64,000 nt of DNA from Natronogracilivirga saccharolytica (lineage in GTDB: Bacteria > Bacteroidota > Rhodothermia > Balneolales > Natronogracilivirgulaceae): assembly GCF_017921895.1 (NCBI RefSeq), contig NZ_JAFIDN010000006.1, positions 124,001 through 188,000 on the forward strand, written 5' to 3'. Made by a program: the position numbers and the translations under genes. The notes beneath the pieces were generated by a model. The model made no database searches. It saw nothing but the letters and a program-made list of their open reading frames with translations, and was not told where the DNA came from. Below, piece by piece: positions 44,766 through 53,029 of this stretch; positions within the stretch are counted from its first letter, which is position 1, and each line of letters starts with the position of its first letter.

Positions 44766-47387
44766 TTAGTTCGGACCGCGCAGAATCGTCATTTTGTGGG
44801 TATCAACATGGTCACCTGCATGCATTCTGGCAATATAGACGCCGCTGGCGAGGTTCTGATTCTGAAATGAGATAGTAGAAACACCGGCCTGCAGCTCCTC
44901 ATTAAAAATGGTTCCTACCCTTCTGCCGGTTACATCGTACAGCTCCACCCGGACCCGGATTCTGTCTTCCACTGTGTCAGGAATATTGATATCAATTTCC
45001 GTGCTTTCAAAAAACGGATTGGGATAATTTCTCAGCAATTCAAATTTGTCCGTTTCGACCATTCCGGGCGTATCTTCATCAACAGGCACTCTGCTAAGAA
45101 TACGTGTGTTCATCACCAGATTTTTATGGTCGTTATCATTATCGATATCGTCATCTCCCATCAGTCTGGACCATCCTACACCACCATCGGCATCAAACCC
45201 GGCAAGCAGTGTACGAACCGGATAGTAATTGGCATCCGACTCATCATTTGATCCCTGATCGAATGCAAACAGCAGGCTGGCGTCATCGGATTCATCCATC
45301 ACTTCAAACACAAAATGGTAATTGCGTCCGGCCTCCATTTCGATCTCAAAATCGGAAAAATCAACTTCGTTGGTTGATGTCGTCAGCTCATCGAAATCAA
45401 GATCCACATAGGCGATGGCATCAGACGGTGCAAATACGGCACCCGTTCCACTGCCACTGATCTGTTCCGATTCAGTAAGGGCAACACGAAGCACACCGCT
45501 TCCCTCTATGGCATCATCAGTGTGCCAGAGGTCAACATCGACTCCGCGCAGTTCGCCGTCGTATTCAGGATCCACGCGTACCGAAATGGCCCGGAACGTA
45601 GTCTGTTCATCAAATTGCATTGGCATGGGTACATAACCTGCCAGCGGATTGACCGCATAATTAATATCCACAACCCTGACTTCTCCGGGTGTCCATTCCG
45701 CATCGTAGCTGAACTCACGGCTTCCGTAGTTGGAAGCGGACTGGACTACAGGGTTCACAGACACCAATACAACCGATACGTACATCCCGCTCAGAGAAAT
45801 TTCATCTCCATCAACAACCATAACTTCCCTGTCACCGTGCTCATCCTGCGCAACCACATAATGGCGTATTTCCGAAGGTGAATTGAGAGTGATGGTGAGA
45901 TCCTCCACATCGCGCCAGTTGGTATATTTTGCCCCACCATACCGCAGCCTGACCGGTTGGTTGGTTACCCACGGGCGATCGCCGCTGTCAAATCTTCGTC
46001 CGGGCGTGGAAACTCTGACACCAGAGAACTGGGGAAGCGTGTATCCATACAGTCCGTTCCCGATTTCAACATCATTGAGCCAGTTGGCAATGTAGAAATC
46101 CGTCAGCACCTGCCGGAATTCCAGGTCTTCCTCAGCTTTGTCAATTGCGCGCTGATACTGCACCCACGGTGACCCGGAGGCACTCTGTGTTATGCCGCCA
46201 ACGGCCTCCAGGCCGATTCTTTCGTAGAGATAGCCATGAAAAAGCTGCGCCCGCTGATAATCCTCAAGCACCTCGGGTTCTCCGGTCCGCCACCGCAGAA
46301 AACCATCCTGTTCCTGGCTCTCGACATTTCCGCTGACTTCATCCGGATCATTCAGGAATACCATGGAACGGGAACCGAACCCGTTGAAGATTTCAGCTAT
46401 TTCGGACTGACCTTCATCCATAAACGTTATCAGATTTCCGCGTCCGGCCTGGATAAGGTGCTGAAACTCATGAGCAACCGTGCTGAGAGGCCGTGAAGGA
46501 TCCGTGGGCATGTCATCGGTATAAATTCCGGGATAGGAGTTTATATACAGGATAGCCGCTTCGTTGCTGTTACTGTTTGATGTTCTGGGGGCCAGGTCGC
46601 CGGGGTTGAAGAAGCCGGCTGTGTAACCTCCGCCCGTATCCGGATCCCAACCGTCCTGTATATCTGAAATCAGAACTTTAACCTTGCCGGTACCCGCAGG
46701 ATCGGGGACAAGGCCGGGATTTCCCTCTGCAAAAATATCAATATTGTTCAGAATGATTCCCTGCTCCGGATTGACAGACCGTGGCGGCGTACGCTCTTCG
46801 AGAGCGATCATCATCGAATCCACCACACCATCGTCGATTTTCCCCGGCTGATACTCATCCTGCTCAACCCAAATCTCAGATTTCTCACCGATGGCACGAA
46901 GCTCGAAAAGTATCTCGTCAAAAACGGCTGCGCCGGGTTCGCTTTCCTCAAGATTGTAGACAAAAAACTCACGGGTGTCACCCACTTCATAAACGACTTC
47001 GTCCTGCATCACCTGAAGCTCATGCGGCGCCTGGTCTCTGAGCCTCAGGTATTCCTCATACGCCTCCTTAATGGACGGCTCCCTGTATAGATAATCTGTC
47101 AGGTGAATAATCTTATCTTCATCACGCGCATGACCCTGTGCATGCATATCCAGCATGCCGTGGGAAGACTCCAGCTGGCCGGACCGGCCGTCGGTCTGAA
47201 ACAGGGCGTCCGTGTGAAAAAGGGTTTCAAGTGAACCCGGATGTGTTATAACGGGTGTGCCGGGCGGACTTTCGGGACTCTGCTCTCCGGGTTGAGCCGC
47301 CGGTATGGAATAGCCGGCAAATAAGATTGTAAGAACAGCAAAGGTGAATGCTCCTGCCGGTCGTGTCAGTAAAGCTTTTGAAGGCAT
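44766..47387 (-). CDS. secreted zinc metallopeptidase (M30-like) with T9SS sorting domain
   Basis: An 873-residue secreted protein. Signal peptide about 1-31; the catalytic core (about 230-480) has VAHEFQHLIQ near residue 305 with downstream DEGQSEIAE, the HExxH zinc site and its third ligand, resembling hyicolysin-type M30 peptidases. A beta-rich region (about 500-760) precedes the C-terminal sorting domain (about 785-873), which begins LLRNYPNPFFEST and ends LASGVYIARMHAGD, the standard T9SS type A pattern. It follows the CotH operon at 161 nt on the same strand. Likely exported and cut at the surface by the T9SS sortase. Confidence 0.85.
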   Translation of the reverse strand: MPSKALLTRPAGAFTFAVLTILFAGYSIPAAQPGEQSPESPPGTPVITHPGSLETLFHTDALFQTDGRSGQLESSHGMLDMHAQGHARDEDKIIHLTDYLYREPSIKEAYEEYLRLRDQAPHELQVMQDEVVYEVGDTREFFVYNLEESEPGAAVFDEILFELRAIGEKSEIWVEQDEYQPGKIDDGVVDSMMIALEERTPPRSVNPEQGIILNNIDIFAEGNPGLVPDPAGTGKVKVLISDIQDGWDPDTGGGYTAGFFNPGDLAPRTSNSNSNEAAILYINSYPGIYTDDMPTDPSRPLSTVAHEFQHLIQAGRGNLITFMDEGQSEIAEIFNGFGSRSMVFLNDPDEVSGNVESQEQDGFLRWRTGEPEVLEDYQRAQLFHGYLYERIGLEAVGGITQSASGSPWVQYQRAIDKAEEDLEFRQVLTDFYIANWLNDVEIGNGLYGYTLPQFSGVRVSTPGRRFDSGDRPWVTNQPVRLRYGGAKYTNWRDVEDLTITLNSPSEIRHYVVAQDEHGDREVMVVDGDEISLSGMYVSVVLVSVNPVVQSASNYGSREFSYDAEWTPGEVRVVDINYAVNPLAGYVPMPMQFDEQTTFRAISVRVDPEYDGELRGVDVDLWHTDDAIEGSGVLRVALTESEQISGSGTGAVFAPSDAIAYVDLDFDELTTSTNEVDFSDFEIEMEAGRNYHFVFEVMDESDDASLLFAFDQGSNDESDANYYPVRTLLAGFDADGGVGWSRLMGDDDIDNDNDHKNLVMNTRILSRVPVDEDTPGMVETDKFELLRNYPNPFFESTEIDINIPDTVEDRIRVRVELYDVTGRRVGTIFNEELQAGVSTISFQNQNLASGVYIARMHAGDHVDTHKMTILRGPN

Positions 47388-47548: not shown

Positions 47549-50440
47549 TCAACGTATTATCGTCATTTTCCGGGACTTTTGTATAGTCTCAGACCTTGTT
47601 TCCGGCCGGAATTTCATCCTGTAGAGATAAACACCGCTTGCCATTCCCGCTGTGTTAAAATGCAAAGTATGCGTTCCAGGTTCAAGTACGCCTTTATCTG
47701 TCCGCTTTACCTTCCTTCCGTCAGCTGTAAAAACATCAAGAACCACACCGGAACGTTCCGGAAGTTCAAATGGAATATTGGTCTGATCGTTAAACGGGTT
47801 CGGATAATTTTGACGTAAACGGAATGTTTTTGGCAGACTTTCACTGTCCTCCCTGTCTGCATCCGTCTTTGCCGGACCGAACACAGCAACAATCTCCATG
47901 TCATCTTCGGGATACCAGCGAAGCCCGGCACCTGTGTGAGAAGAACCATTCTCAAATCTGATATCTTCTCTGTCCAGCGGCCGGCCGTTTTGGTCACGCC
48001 ACTCTATGAAAATGTAACCCTCTGCAGGAACAGCGGTTATATCCACCGGAATATCGTTGAAGTACATTCCTGTCCACTGCGAAATATCGTCCGGAACACC
48101 CTGCGTCCCGGAACGAATATCCGTGCTGTCCAAACGTACATGTCCGGCTGTTTCACCGTCGAGCCCACCCTGAACAGCGATATTCAGGTCCGCTGTTCCG
48201 CCCAGATCAAAGTGATCCAGAATGTGAGACCGCATATAGCCGGGGCGTTTTTCTGCAAATTCAAGCATGACGTCAATGTGCTCATTCCATCCATCCGGGC
48301 TTCCTCCGGCGCTTCGCTGATGACGCCGTATGTGTTCTTCGATTTCCGGCCGGTAGGATTTACGGAATGCGTCAATCCGTTCTGAAACATGCGATGATGC
48401 AAACCGGGTATTCAGGTCCGTAGCCATCAGATTGACAAAGCGCCGGCGGAATTCCTCGTTTTCAATCAATCCTTCAAACAGATCATTAACCCACTCAGAA
48501 GGGGCCCTCGGATTCCCCGTTCCCGTGATCCATTCAAGCATATTGTGATCATATTCAGCCCACCATGCATTTTCACCGCCATATGGAAATCCGAAAGTGG
48601 CATCGAGGTCAAAAATCATCCAGCGCCACCTGCCGTCCGCACCGTAAGACGCATCCGGACGAAATTCATCAGTACGCTTTCGCCAGAAACGGATATTGTT
48701 GTGCGGCCAGTCCGCATTGGCTGCATATACCTTCATCATCAGATACTTCAGATAGTTTTCGACATCCATCATGCCGGCTACATGATCAAAATGATCCGGA
48801 TCGGACAGGTCCTGGTCACGGGCATAGTCCCTCATTTCCAGATAGTGATCCCGGTCATCCGGATTGCCCCGGTTCACCTCGGCATTTCCGGTCAGAATCA
48901 CCACATCATCACGGTGAATGCCGTAATTGGTCTCCACATACCAGCCGTCGTACCGCTCACGGATGTTGTGAATGCCCCAGTATTCGCCGTTGATGAAGAC
49001 CACCGCGGGTCGGTAAGCCTGCTGATCGACATTCCGGTCACTGTACAGCGACTGAACCATGGCATCCTTGAACATCGTGTGGAACCAGTCGTCACCGGAT
49101 GAGCGCAATATCAGCCGCTTGTATTTGTCCGGAGGCTGATCGGAGCCGGTTTTCGTGTTGCCGGGAAACAGAGGCCAGGTAATATCGGGATTCCAGTCAT
49201 AATCGCTGCGGGAATAGATTCGTATGGATTTCTGCGGGTATCGCCGTGTTGCGCCGCCGTGAATTCGGATACCGATATTTTGTGAAAATCCGTACGTGCC
49301 GGAATCATTGTCCGGCGTGCCGTCAATAAACGTTAGATGTGCCGGCCGTTCCCATTCCCGGCCCCGTTCGTTATAATTGCCGCTGCCAACCGGGTTATCC
49401 GGATCGTATTTGTCACCGGGTACAAACAATCCCGTTTCGTCACTGAAAAGATGGACCGAGTCGGTCACGATGGACAGAACCGGGAAGCTGTAGCGGTCAG
49501 CACCAGCGGGATCCACAAACCATGTCCCTGAAACCGGATCGCTTTGGCGGTACCCGTCCCGCACGGCAATGGCCCGGACAACATTCCCTTTGAAGACCGG
49601 TCCGTCAGGTGGCTGCCAGTGTGCCGGAGCTTCCGGCGGCCCCGGACTTGTTGGTATGGTTGACAAACGGTTTGGCTCCCCTTCCCGTGATTCAATGAGG
49701 ATGGAGTCGCCGTATACCGGCGAGTCTGTTGTCGGTTCCGATCCGTCGAGTGTGTAATGAATGCGCGCATGCGGATCCTCGGTTTCTATCGACAAATGAA
49801 ACGCGTCTGTATAAAATCCCGGATCCCGGGAAAAAGCGGGACCGGATGTGATTCCCTCATACGGTGATGTCGTGTTTGGTGCCCCCGGAGTTGGCTCAGG
49901 GAATAGAAACCAGTTTTCGGTTCCGTCCGGGTAACGGCCGAAAGAATAGTCAGACGGGATCGGGGTCGGCTCCAGTTCGTCGATGACGGGAGTGTTGCGG
50001 CCGGGAAGATTCGTGAAATAGCTCAGTATAACCTCTTCGCCTTCAGATTGTATGCTGAATCCGGCATGAAGCGGCGCTTCGGGATCACGCCGATCCTTGC
50101 CGGATGCCCAGACCAGCAGAAATTCATCCGGACCGATGTGGCTTCCTTCAGGGAAGACCCACCGGTAAAGGTTATCATAATCGTCGGAGAGGCCAAAGCC
50201 GCCAAGCCAGACGGTATCGGAACCCGGGTTGTACAGCTCCACCCAGTCCTCATAATCGCCGTCCTCATCTGCGATAGTTTCGTTGTTGGAAGCCTGGACC
50301 TCATTGATTACGACGGGTATCATGTTCGACTCTGGCTCTTCTTGCGGAGTCTGCGATTCTGCACGGGCGGACAGAAACGTGAAAAAAAACGGGATCAGCA
50401 GGGAGATGAGGGCTGCGCGGGGCATCGGGGAGATCGTCAT
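47549..50440 (-). CDS. CotH-kinase protein with lamin-tail, chitobiase-like and T9SS sorting domains
   Basis: A 963-residue secreted protein. Signal peptide about 1-27; a lamin-tail domain (about 44-180, VINEVQASNN to YFTNLPG); a CHB_HEX_C-like domain (about 205-270, YTLDGSEPTTDSPVYG); a CotH kinase domain (about 380-640) with IRIHGGATRRYPQKSI, IHNIRERYDGWYVETNYG and the metal-binding MIFDLDATFGFP near residue 610; and the T9SS type A tail (about 880-963, LRQNYPNPFNDQT). CotH proteins phosphorylate other surface proteins in Bacillus spores. It is the last gene of the operon, 8 nt after the HlyD-like gene. No substrate is obvious. Confidence 0.87.
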   Translation of the reverse strand: MTISPMPRAALISLLIPFFFTFLSARAESQTPQEEPESNMIPVVINEVQASNNETIADEDGDYEDWVELYNPGSDTVWLGGFGLSDDYDNLYRWVFPEGSHIGPDEFLLVWASGKDRRDPEAPLHAGFSIQSEGEEVILSYFTNLPGRNTPVIDELEPTPIPSDYSFGRYPDGTENWFLFPEPTPGAPNTTSPYEGITSGPAFSRDPGFYTDAFHLSIETEDPHARIHYTLDGSEPTTDSPVYGDSILIESREGEPNRLSTIPTSPGPPEAPAHWQPPDGPVFKGNVVRAIAVRDGYRQSDPVSGTWFVDPAGADRYSFPVLSIVTDSVHLFSDETGLFVPGDKYDPDNPVGSGNYNERGREWERPAHLTFIDGTPDNDSGTYGFSQNIGIRIHGGATRRYPQKSIRIYSRSDYDWNPDITWPLFPGNTKTGSDQPPDKYKRLILRSSGDDWFHTMFKDAMVQSLYSDRNVDQQAYRPAVVFINGEYWGIHNIRERYDGWYVETNYGIHRDDVVILTGNAEVNRGNPDDRDHYLEMRDYARDQDLSDPDHFDHVAGMMDVENYLKYLMMKVYAANADWPHNNIRFWRKRTDEFRPDASYGADGRWRWMIFDLDATFGFPYGGENAWWAEYDHNMLEWITGTGNPRAPSEWVNDLFEGLIENEEFRRRFVNLMATDLNTRFASSHVSERIDAFRKSYRPEIEEHIRRHQRSAGGSPDGWNEHIDVMLEFAEKRPGYMRSHILDHFDLGGTADLNIAVQGGLDGETAGHVRLDSTDIRSGTQGVPDDISQWTGMYFNDIPVDITAVPAEGYIFIEWRDQNGRPLDREDIRFENGSSHTGAGLRWYPEDDMEIVAVFGPAKTDADREDSESLPKTFRLRQNYPNPFNDQTNIPFELPERSGVVLDVFTADGRKVKRTDKGVLEPGTHTLHFNTAGMASGVYLYRMKFRPETRSETIQKSRKMTIIR

Positions 50441-50448
50441 CCCGAAAA

Positions 50449-51540
50449 CTAACGAGTTATAAGCCGCATATCAACAATTTCGCCGGGCATCAGGTCCAGC
50501 TCCCGGTTGATGCGGATGCGCACCGGCAGACCGGTGGTTTCGAATGGTTGTTCGGGAAACAGCTGGCTTAACTCTTCAATCGTCTCCATTTGCACACCGA
50601 CCTGATCCACCACCATTATAGCCTCTTCACGATCGCGGGTCTGTTTTCTGACCAGCACCTCCATTCCGGGCTCCGGTTTCACAAATACCGGATGACGAAC
50701 ATGGCCAATAATATAATCCGGAGTGGGTGACTGGATGTTCATAACGATATCGCCCTGTTCTACGAATTCGCCGTTACTTTTCAGCACCTCGGAAACCTGT
50801 CCGCTCACCGGCGCCTCCAGCGTAACAGGCATCATTTCGGCTTCAATTTTTTCGATAGTCCGCTGGTGTACCTTGATTGCCGCTGCACGCGGATCATCTT
50901 CTTTCCAAAGTTCGGGGACTCTGTCAAGGTCAATAGCCTCAAGGCGTTCATCCAGCCGGTCAACCAGCTGCGCAATCACTTCAACCTCCTGCTCCAGTGA
51001 CCGGAATTCGGTCCTGGCCTCATCCACAGCTTCGTCGGTAGTCAGACCAAGCTCATCGAGCCGCTCCACTCTCTGCAGTTCCCGTTCGGCCTGCTGCTTC
51101 TGTATGGTGGCCATAGCCAGGCGTGCGCGGTTTTCCATCAGATCCATCTGCATGGATTCATAGTTCAGAATGTTTCGCTGCTGATCGGCGAAGGGATCCA
51201 TGGACAGGCGCGTCAGCTCAAGTTCGGCCAGGACGACGGCGAGCTCGGCTTCCATGATCTTTGGATCGGTTGTTATAAGCCTGCCGACCGGATCACCGGC
51301 TGAAACGGAATCAAAATCCTGTACTGTAATTTCCGATAGCGCGCCGGCCTGCGGGCTGCGAACTTCTGCCTGTTGCCCGACAACGCGTCCGACCATGGTA
51401 GTGGCGTCCATACGGTCTTGCCAGAGCCAGGCAACTACACCGGCTACGACTACAAAAACTGCGAAGGGGATGATGCGAACCCGGATTTCTCTCCAGCGTT
51501 GGGATGGAGGCACCGGTATTTTTTCGTGATTATTTGCCAT
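50449..51540 (-). CDS. HlyD-family periplasmic adaptor protein
   Basis: A 363-residue membrane fusion protein. One N-terminal helix (about 22-42, IIPFAVFVVVAGVVAWLW), a lipoyl-like barrel start (VVGQQAEVRSPQAGALSEI), a long coiled-coil hairpin (about 95-215), the second barrel half (VTLEAPVSGQVSEVLKSNGE), and a short C-terminal beta domain. No ABC or RND partner and no outer-membrane factor is near. Its position between DUF4956 and CotH suggests that it links the inner-membrane proteins to something outside; this is inference. Confidence 0.85.
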   Translation of the reverse strand: MANNHEKIPVPPSQRWREIRVRIIPFAVFVVVAGVVAWLWQDRMDATTMVGRVVGQQAEVRSPQAGALSEITVQDFDSVSAGDPVGRLITTDPKIMEAELAVVLAELELTRLSMDPFADQQRNILNYESMQMDLMENRARLAMATIQKQQAERELQRVERLDELGLTTDEAVDEARTEFRSLEQEVEVIAQLVDRLDERLEAIDLDRVPELWKEDDPRAAAIKVHQRTIEKIEAEMMPVTLEAPVSGQVSEVLKSNGEFVEQGDIVMNIQSPTPDYIIGHVRHPVFVKPEPGMEVLVRKQTRDREEAIMVVDQVGVQMETIEELSQLFPEQPFETTGLPVRIRINRELDLMPGEIVDMRLITR

Positions 51541-51553
51541 GGTGGTAATGCGG

Positions 51554-52240
51554 TCAGACTTCCGATTCTTCTTCGGCTTTCATTGTGGTTACACGGGAAA
51601 CAGCGGTATTGGCCTGCAGCTCATTAAGCAGATCCTGGATGCGGGACGGATCGCGGAGCAGCAGCCTGTAGGACAGGTCGGCCCCTTCGTCATCTCTCAC
51701 GGAGCGCTGGCTTGCCATATGCACCTTCAGGGAGTGGCGCTCCAGCAACTGCTGCAGTTCGCTGAGTTTTTTCAGTGATTCGGACCAGTGCAGATTCAGT
51801 ATGAGATCATAGCGTTGCCGGCTCCCGAAAGATGTAAACCAGATATAGATCAGCACGGATGAAGCAATTAACGTCCCGATCAGTGCGGTTGAAAATTTCT
51901 GGGTCCCGCAGGCCATGCCGATAACGATCAGGCTGAGAATATAGACCGTATCAAGAGTATCACGTACGATATTACGAAAGCGTACGATGGCAAAGACGGC
52001 CATCAGACTGAATGCGGTGACCAGGTTGTTGTCCAGCACCATCATGACCAGTGCAACGGTAATAGGTATGAGTATAAGTGAACTCACATACGTGCGGGAG
52101 TATGAGAGTCCGGAATGGGTGTACATGTACACCCAGGCCAGAAGCTGTCCGCACAAAAAGGCGAGCAACAGCGCCATGATGAGCGCCGAAAAGTCGGTAG
52201 GGAGCGGCGCTACATCGCCGAGGTAAATCCAGTCTGACAT
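51554..52240 (-). CDS. DUF4956 membrane protein
   Basis: A 228-residue inner-membrane protein with about four helices (about 15-42, 48-72, 77-95 and 103-135) and a cytoplasmic C-terminal domain (about 145-228). The core is SYSRTYVSSLILIPITVALVM, then FSLMAVFAIVRFRNIVRDTLD, the DUF4956 signature. Proteins of this family are found mostly next to VTC-domain and CotH genes, as here (13 nt to the HlyD gene, 33 nt from the VTC gene). Biochemical role unknown; a partner of the VTC protein is likely. Confidence 0.87.
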   Translation of the reverse strand: MSDWIYLGDVAPLPTDFSALIMALLLAFLCGQLLAWVYMYTHSGLSYSRTYVSSLILIPITVALVMMVLDNNLVTAFSLMAVFAIVRFRNIVRDTLDTVYILSLIVIGMACGTQKFSTALIGTLIASSVLIYIWFTSFGSRQRYDLILNLHWSESLKKLSELQQLLERHSLKVHMASQRSVRDDEGADLSYRLLLRDPSRIQDLLNELQANTAVSRVTTMKAEEESEV

Positions 52241-52273
52241 AATTACGGTTTAAAACTTTATGCGGGCGATGTG

Positions 52274-53029
52274 TTACACATACGCCCTGAAAAATTGTTG
52301 TTCTCCCATGTTCTCGATGCCGTCCACGTACTTCGCTGCGCTGCCGGCACGCAATCCGAACACCTGTACCAGGTCTTTGAACCAGTTGGGAAAACGATTA
52401 GTGAATTTGAGTTCCAGTACCAGGTTGTTACCGAAGACATATCTCGGGTTTTTCAACCGGGATGAAAATGTGATTTGATTTTCCGGCTCGCTGCGGACCT
52501 TGCGGTCGATGGTAACCCTGATCTTGTTGGAACCGTCGGCAACCCAGGCCTCGCGGTAGTAGGCCACATGAACTTTGGGCCCGGCATTCAGATGGTAAAC
52601 AAGCCGGGTGAAATCGTGCAGCGCATCAAGCTGTTCTGCTGTCGGATTCACCAGGCTGTCCCTGTCCGGAATGAACCCCCGCGTCATATCATAAGCGGCT
52701 TCCCGGTGGACAATAGCCCGTTTTTTTGCAATTACCTTGTCATGCCGCCGCTTTATCTCAAAATAAACCGGTGAATCATCTGTTTTTTCGTAAAATCGAA
52801 TCCGCAGCTTGTAACGGTTCCGGTCACCATTAATGGTTTCCTGATAGGTACGCAGATCGGGCGAGTCCAGATAGAGACTGTGCACGGGATACGAAAGATT
52901 GGGTTGCGTCGCTCCGTAGCTGTCCAGGTCCAGATACGACGAAACAAAGTCACGTATCCCGAGTGCAACATCTTCATTTATGATGTACTTGTGCTCGAAA
53001 CGTTGTCTTTGCAGTCTGTCGACACCCAT
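52274..53029 (-). CDS. VTC-domain protein (polyphosphate-polymerase-like)
   Basis: ATG 53029 gives 251 residues starting MGVDRLQRQRFEHKYIINED, the usual VTC-domain start; the frame is open to 53122, but those residues are unlike the family. The basic tunnel residues that hold ATP and polyphosphate in the yeast VTC4 polymerase can be recognised: RFEHKY, HSLYLDSPDLRTYQETINGDRNRYKLRIRFY, VYFEIKRRHDKVIAKKRAIV and FGNNLVLELKFT. It lacks the SPX domain and membrane helices. First gene of the VTC-DUF4956-HlyD-CotH operon. A polyphosphate or nucleotide-polymer product is plausible but unproven in bacteria of this kind. Confidence 0.85.
   Translation of the reverse strand: MGVDRLQRQRFEHKYIINEDVALGIRDFVSSYLDLDSYGATQPNLSYPVHSLYLDSPDLRTYQETINGDRNRYKLRIRFYEKTDDSPVYFEIKRRHDKVIAKKRAIVHREAAYDMTRGFIPDRDSLVNPTAEQLDALHDFTRLVYHLNAGPKVHVAYYREAWVADGSNKIRVTIDRKVRSEPENQITFSSRLKNPRYVFGNNLVLELKFTNRFPNWFKDLVQVFGLRAGSAAKYVDGIENMGEQQFFRAYV

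Follow-up and report, generated by a model that had tools for sequence, protein, structure and literature searches.

A VTC–DUF4956–HlyD–CotH gene cluster of Natronogracilivirga saccharolytica as a candidate envelope-spanning system

Which common task could be served by a VTC-type polyphosphate polymerase, a DUF4956 membrane protein, a HlyD-family adaptor and a CotH-family kinase that are encoded one after the other in the genome of Natronogracilivirga saccharolytica? The question is raised by a locus in a window of 64,000 nucleotides (nt), the whole stretch of DNA that was analysed (contig NZ_JAFIDN010000006.1, positions 124,001 to 188,000). All open reading frames (ORFs) of the cluster are on the minus strand, separated by gaps of 33, 13 and 8 nt, and they contain the domains that an earlier note on this DNA had assigned to them (lengths in amino acids, aa):

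52274..53029, minus strand: VTC-domain (triphosphate-tunnel, TTM) protein, 251 aa, a predicted polyphosphate polymerase (Pfam VTC, 2.9e-40)
51554..52240, minus strand: DUF4956 membrane protein, 228 aa (Pfam DUF4956, 1.7e-12)
50449..51540, minus strand: HlyD-family periplasmic adaptor, 363 aa, EmrA-like (Pfam Biotin_lipoyl, 3.6e-10, and HlyD_3, 1.7e-9; NCBIfam)
47549..50440, minus strand: CotH kinase-family protein, 963 aa, predicted to be exported (Pfam CotH, 9e-45; NCBIfam)

The earlier proposal that these four genes belong together is supported by the present analysis. The best reading of gene order and fold, to which a probability of roughly one half is given, is that the cluster encodes an envelope-spanning system in which a DUF4956–HlyD–TolC conduit is fed by VTC and serves CotH kinases at the cell surface. 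VTC, as a cytosolic triphosphate-tunnel enzyme, would use ATP to build a phosphate polymer at the inner membrane, and DUF4956, as the inner-membrane subunit, would take up the product. The EmrA-like HlyD would dock on DUF4956 and bridge the periplasm to an outer-membrane factor of the TolC family, whose gene would lie elsewhere in the window genome and which relatives encode in cis. What arrives at the surface in this way would most likely be polyphosphate or a derivative of it; CotH kinases, brought there by the type IX secretion system (T9SS) or as lipoproteins, would use it, possibly as a phosphate donor, because ATP is scarce outside the cell.

The conservation of the neighbourhood was read in 103 DUF4956 loci from Balneolales, other Bacteroidota, Verrucomicrobiota and Alphaproteobacteria, and in 14 additional Balneolales loci without VTC, with genes called as six-frame ORFs. 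Related loci were found by sequence patterns derived from the window DUF4956, which biases that set towards close homologues; the sample of phyla is independent of this bias. A HlyD gene on the same strand adjoins DUF4956 in 46 of the 48 VTC-bearing Balneolales loci, and the other two (L051 and L053) end at a contig edge; in L029 it is the VTC side of the locus that is cut off. The same adjacency was found in 14/14 VTC-less Balneolales loci, in 29/40 loci of other Bacteroidota and in 9/13 loci of Verrucomicrobiota, three more of which have a divergently oriented HlyD gene. A restriction of HlyD to the clade of the window organism, which had been considered, was rejected because of its presence beside DUF4956 in these other groups. 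The gene order rotates, being either VTC-DUF4956-HlyD or HlyD-VTC-DUF4956, which argues for a function and not merely for the shared descent of one arrangement. The HlyD proteins of the rotated-order and of the VTC-less groups are very divergent and are true homologues by profile comparison (99% by hhalign at E 5e-18 and 4e-18, with the reversed controls below 1%). VTC and DUF4956 adjoin across several phyla, so that the concern that the genes might seldom be neighbours in relatives does not apply. The earlier note had seen a novelty in the position of HlyD between the other genes; its membership stands, not as an odd insertion, however, since HlyD is a core member of the neighbourhood and CotH the variable one.

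Five Gram-positive loci (Planococcus, Nonomuraea, Paenibacillus, Acetoanaerobium and Enterococcus), four of which have a VTC gene, contain DUF4956 and neither HlyD nor TolC, and this is what a role in crossing the envelope predicts. VTC and DUF4956 are single-copy in the window genome, and the four-gene cluster is present again in close relatives, so that the arrangement is not due to chance. The whole VTC-DUF4956-HlyD-CotH cassette occurs in tandem duplicate in one locus (L024, 7028-16684), where the second CotH is cut by the locus end. Gracilimonas mengyeensis (L027) is among the carriers of VTC, DUF4956 and HlyD. In 8/40 loci of other Bacteroidota HlyD is replaced by DUF2490, whose members weakly match outer-membrane barrels and porins, which suggests that DUF2490 is an alternative outer-membrane partner; the VTC-DUF4956-DUF2490 variant is represented by L164-L173. 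The genomes G347 and G147 each have three VTC loci, one of which is ordered DUF4956-CotH-VTC and has a large CotH (L166 and L169), and the alphaproteobacterial locus L060 has this order too.

The outer-membrane end of the proposed conduit is found in cis in relatives. The VTC-less Balneolales loci that were read, 14 in number, all share one order, in which HlyD comes after DUF4956 and is itself followed by a protein of about 413 aa. By profile–profile comparison with the TolC family (95.8% by hhalign at E 8e-9, against 0.4% for the reversed control) and by weak matches to Pfam OEP in 3 of the 14 proteins (best 9.8e-6), this protein is a divergent TolC-family factor; as a single sequence it gave no match in Pfam, and the PDB gave none even to its profile. 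Other loci are ordered CotH–DUF4956–HlyD–OEP–VTC (L162) or OEP–VTC–DUF4956–HlyD (L050, OEP at 7e-40), and a Hymenobacter plasmid has the order HlyD–DUF4956–"TolC family protein" (TolC by NCBI annotation, HlyD by profile). A TolC-family gene lies in cis with DUF4956-HlyD in 17 loci in all, and these loci lend support to the suggested passage of a product through HlyD. The window genome has several TolC-family (OEP) genes outside the cluster. The VTC-less Balneolales cluster (L208-L221) consists of genes for a YceI-like protein, DUF6580, DUF4956, HlyD, the divergent TolC-like protein and a short-chain dehydrogenase, and is tied to CotH at the genome level only.

The adaptor itself has the parts that define the adaptor of a tripartite EmrA-TolC exporter, i.e. 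a membrane anchor, a lipoyl domain and an alpha-hairpin. Its profile matches the structure of EmrA (4tko, E=2.5e-17), and EmrA of EmrAB-TolC is also the best fold match (E=7.6e-17) of the predicted model (pLDDT 82.7), in which an N-terminal membrane helix and the lipoyl domain are accompanied by a long two-helix hairpin (residues 121-163 and 169-202). The tip of this hairpin is located as follows:

51013..51072, minus strand: alpha-hairpin tip of HlyD, RVERLDELGLTTDEAVDEAR, residues 157-176, with R157 invariant in 34 homologues

Many relatives read R...LF..LIS..EYE where the window protein has RVERLDELGLTTDEAVDEAR, and we take these tips to resemble those of TolC-docking adaptors. By sequence and predicted fold, HlyD is probably an EmrA-type adaptor that docks on TolC. 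These features bear on the alternative that VTC, DUF4956 and HlyD make polyphosphate into the periplasm only, with HlyD as a scaffold or sensor for VTC and DUF4956 and no outer-membrane factor involved. It would fit the fact that most VTC-bearing loci, including that of the window, have no TolC gene in cis. However, the long hairpin with its docking-like tip, the closeness to EmrA, the 17 loci with TolC in cis and the TolC-family genes elsewhere in the window genome all speak against it, and it is regarded as rather unlikely.

No MFS, RND or ABC inner-membrane pump is encoded among the genes of the window cluster, and the recurrent inner-membrane neighbour in relatives is DUF4956. From the gene order, DUF4956 is therefore proposed to be the inner-membrane component of the conduit, in the place of the pump. 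In its predicted model (pLDDT 78.5) grouped membrane helices are combined with a C-terminal domain of ACT/ferredoxin-like type and beta-alpha-beta-beta-alpha-beta order, for which weak ACT-type profile matches were also obtained (Rel ACT, E=0.037). A Foldseek search of the PDB gave no match at E<=0.001, the only matches being ACT/ferredoxin-like ones on the C-terminal domain. One motif is strongly conserved:

51974..51982, minus strand: RFR motif of DUF4956 (R87-F-R89), in a loop between predicted membrane helices, identified by conservation

It is kept in 93/101 DUF4956 proteins of the main locus set, in 14/14 of the VTC-less loci and in 7/7 loci from the plasmid collection, and the exceptions that were inspected read RYR. 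DUF4956 resembles the MgtC/SapB family in being a small multi-helix membrane protein with, in the model, a C-terminal ACT-like domain, and its profile aligns collinearly with that of MgtC at 22.5% (pairwise E 9e-4, against 1.8% for the reversed control), a match too weak for a claim of homology. DUF4956 might thus be a regulator with an MgtC-like layout, controlling VTC and a HlyD-TolC efflux system by sensing phosphate, nucleotide or Mg and carrying no cargo, and the ACT-type matches as well as the MgtC match would agree with such a role. In that case, however, these loci would encode no inner-membrane partner of HlyD that recurs, and the match to MgtC is only weak; a purely regulatory DUF4956 is considered improbable.

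The presumed source of the cargo is VTC. A profile of 39 homologues matches the structure of yeast Vtc4 (3g3q, E=5.7e-22); the profile was needed for this match, and a search of the PDB with the single sequence gave nothing useful. The residues K14, R72, K74, R76, R78, E91, K93, R159, E206, K208 and K233 are invariant in the alignment of the 39 sequences, so that the basic tunnel residues, the loss of which would have spoken against polymer formation, and the catalytic glutamate of a TTM-fold polyphosphate polymerase are intact, and VTC is predicted to be such an enzyme. The window genome carries PPK1 in addition to VTC. In the family f1 (G000, G110-G128), PPK1 was unmatched in 13 of the 17 VTC-bearing genomes, one of them 98% complete, and VTC may be the only polyphosphate polymerase of those genomes, perhaps as a replacement of PPK1. 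Among the 24 VTC-less genomes with DUF4956, 22 have PPK1 and the remaining two are 63-67% complete. With VTC present elsewhere, nearly every DUF4956 genome would thus have at least one route to polyphosphate, a distribution that is compatible with polyphosphate as the cargo and weak as proof of it.

The CotH protein would be the user at the surface. It is composed of an LTD domain (residues 42-139), CHB_HEX_C_1/Fn3_assoc, the CotH domain (391-736) and a T9SS tail (879-943). The Pfam match spans the full CotH model (positions 1-322 of 322, 9e-45) and the core residues G390, R392, G395, D451, N484, E495, D577 and D611 are conserved, so that it can be described as a kinase-family protein with a putative kinase activity; a single-sequence search of the PDB gave nothing useful. 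Its tail was identified as follows:

47612..47806, minus strand: T9SS type A sorting domain of CotH (TIGR04183, 25.7 bits, cut-off 23)

The tail falls just below the cut-off of Pfam PF18962 (26.9 versus 27.0), and SprA of the T9SS was found in the genome (1575 bits); with sorting domain and secretion system both present, CotH has the features of a T9SS type A cargo. The earlier note had considered the tailed CotH as new and had proposed to test for a rule that the tail is present whenever HlyD is. Neither idea held: such a tail is ordinary, being found in 8/8 scanned CotH genes of the window genome, and tail-less CotH genes occur together with HlyD in L150, L162 and L163, which also rules out a link of the tail to HlyD. 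The tail-less CotH neighbours in L150, L162, L164, L165 and L171 begin with a lipobox-like signal, and CotH is therefore predicted to be an exported protein in either case, with the tail or without it.

Among well-flanked loci, a CotH gene on the same strand and no more than 8 kb away was found in 12/24 from Balneolales, in 16/37 from other Bacteroidota and in 2/11 from Verrucomicrobiota. It could be asked whether CotH is related to the other three genes at all, or is adjacent to them by chance or through a general clustering of surface genes, all the more as CotH is multi-copy in the window genome (13 matches) and is missing beside many of the loci. The distribution among genomes makes this very improbable. 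In 129 Balneolales genomes, CotH is present in 70/73 genomes with DUF4956 and in 14/56 without it (Fisher 3e-18, ignoring phylogeny), and the association also holds among genomes without VTC (23/24 versus 13/55; 9e-10, likewise ignoring phylogeny), in whose loci, as far as they were read, CotH is not beside DUF4956. In the genera g10 and g12, 11 genomes have both genes, 7 have neither and 0 are mixed. In addition, DUF4956 and CotH are repeatedly adjacent in Gram-positive bacteria and in published loci.

A further gene is likely to be the fifth member of the cluster, which had escaped the earlier note:

44766..47387, minus strand: T9SS-tailed protein, 873 aa, with an HEFQH metalloprotease-like motif (by conserved motif and by neighbourhood in relatives)

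It sits 161 nt after CotH and encodes, besides the T9SS tail, a conserved AHEFQHLIxAG...EGQSE metalloprotease-like motif, for which a Pfam scan gave no protease match. In close relatives it is located downstream of CotH, and in L012 and L022, both of which are without CotH, it directly follows HlyD.

Parts of this system are known from other organisms. The yeast VTC complex (Vtc1/Vtc3/Vtc4) has the same catalytic fold and invariant tunnel residues, and in it synthesis takes place at a membrane protein and is coupled to translocation via a membrane channel (PMC9911596); in contrast, the window VTC lacks both an SPX domain and a fused membrane domain, its membrane partner would be DUF4956, and HlyD and TolC have no yeast counterpart. 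The MFS-type tripartite efflux pump EmrAB-TolC shares the type of adaptor, in sequence and in fold, and, in relatives, the TolC-family gene in cis, whereas the present unit is without an MFS, RND or ABC pump and has DUF4956 in the inner-membrane position. The CotH spore-coat kinases share the full-length domain and the conserved core residues with the window protein, which differs from them in being large, multi-domain and exported in a T9SS-bearing bacterium.

The clustering of VTC, DUF4956 and CotH has already been published for accessory genes of Pel loci (PMC7112168), and VTC and CotH occur together in NELoc-2 of Clostridium perfringens (PMC2879425). These Gram-positive clusters likewise combine VTC, a membrane partner and CotH in an operon, and no HlyD is listed for them in the two papers; the window cluster adds HlyD, and its CotH is a T9SS cargo with LTD and beta-sandwich domains. 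The cargo might also be a different one. VTC might supply a surface polysaccharide with a phosphate polymer or a phosphorylated precursor; DUF4956 and HlyD would then assemble or export the glycan, CotH would decorate or regulate it, and polyphosphate would not be the cargo. This possibility is in line with the occurrence of CotH, polyphosphate polymerase and DUF4956 as Pel accessory genes in streptococci, clostridia and bifidobacteria (PMC7112168), with a glycosyltransferase in the same gene run in a Planococcus plasmid and in NELoc-2, and with L145 and L150, in which the HlyD-VTC-DUF4956 run immediately adjoins a gene for a Cthe_2159 carbohydrate-binding protein. However, neither the scanned genes beside the window cluster, which include no pel gene, nor the scanned neighbours in related loci contain a gene for glycan synthesis, and a glycan cargo is considered unlikely. 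In the open-access literature searched, which has DUF4956 in only three papers and includes neither subscription papers nor preprints, no report of a link of DUF4956 to HlyD or TolC was found; the association of HlyD and TolC with DUF4956 is the main result of this study and is apparently unreported.

It should be noted that several observations weigh against a polyphosphate-carrying envelope conduit. HlyD is missing in both Alphaproteobacteria loci (0/2 positive) and in the Sinorhizobium locus, although these bacteria are diderm. The window cluster and most other VTC-bearing loci lack the TolC gene, as described above, and CotH lies close to VTC, DUF4956 and HlyD in no more than about half of the well-flanked Balneolales loci and in few of those of Verrucomicrobiota, while the probabilities of its co-occurrence with DUF4956 do not take phylogeny into account. 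The DUF4956-HlyD-TolC set is retained in genomes without VTC, and VTC is therefore not the sole possible source of cargo. The DUF4956 model is of moderate confidence and has no strong structural match, and the channel role is a proposal. Sequence comparison shows the family identities, the intact VTC tunnel, the adaptor fold, the gene order, TolC in cis in relatives and the co-occurrence of DUF4956 and CotH; that DUF4956 is a channel, that polyphosphate is moved, that it moves outwards and that CotH uses it would be further steps. Going beyond the envelope-spanning system as such, DUF4956 might found a new class of tripartite exporters, in which an inner-membrane protein of neither ABC, RND nor MFS type, together with an EmrA-like adaptor and TolC, moves VTC-made polyphosphate to the surface, where the polymer powers an ATP-independent phosphorylation by CotH kinases; so far-reaching a version is doubtful.

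Bacterial VTC proteins, DUF4956 proteins and extracellular CotH kinases are widespread and have been without a proven joint function in the literature searched. From the conserved DUF4956–HlyD–TolC gene set, DUF4956 acquires a definite role that can be tested, namely that of the membrane part of a trans-envelope conduit. If VTC is the only polyphosphate polymerase in the PPK1-negative f1 genomes, tests by gene removal would be easy to read there. A phosphate polymer that is made inside the cell and exported would be a candidate answer to the question of how an extracellular kinase is supplied with phosphate.

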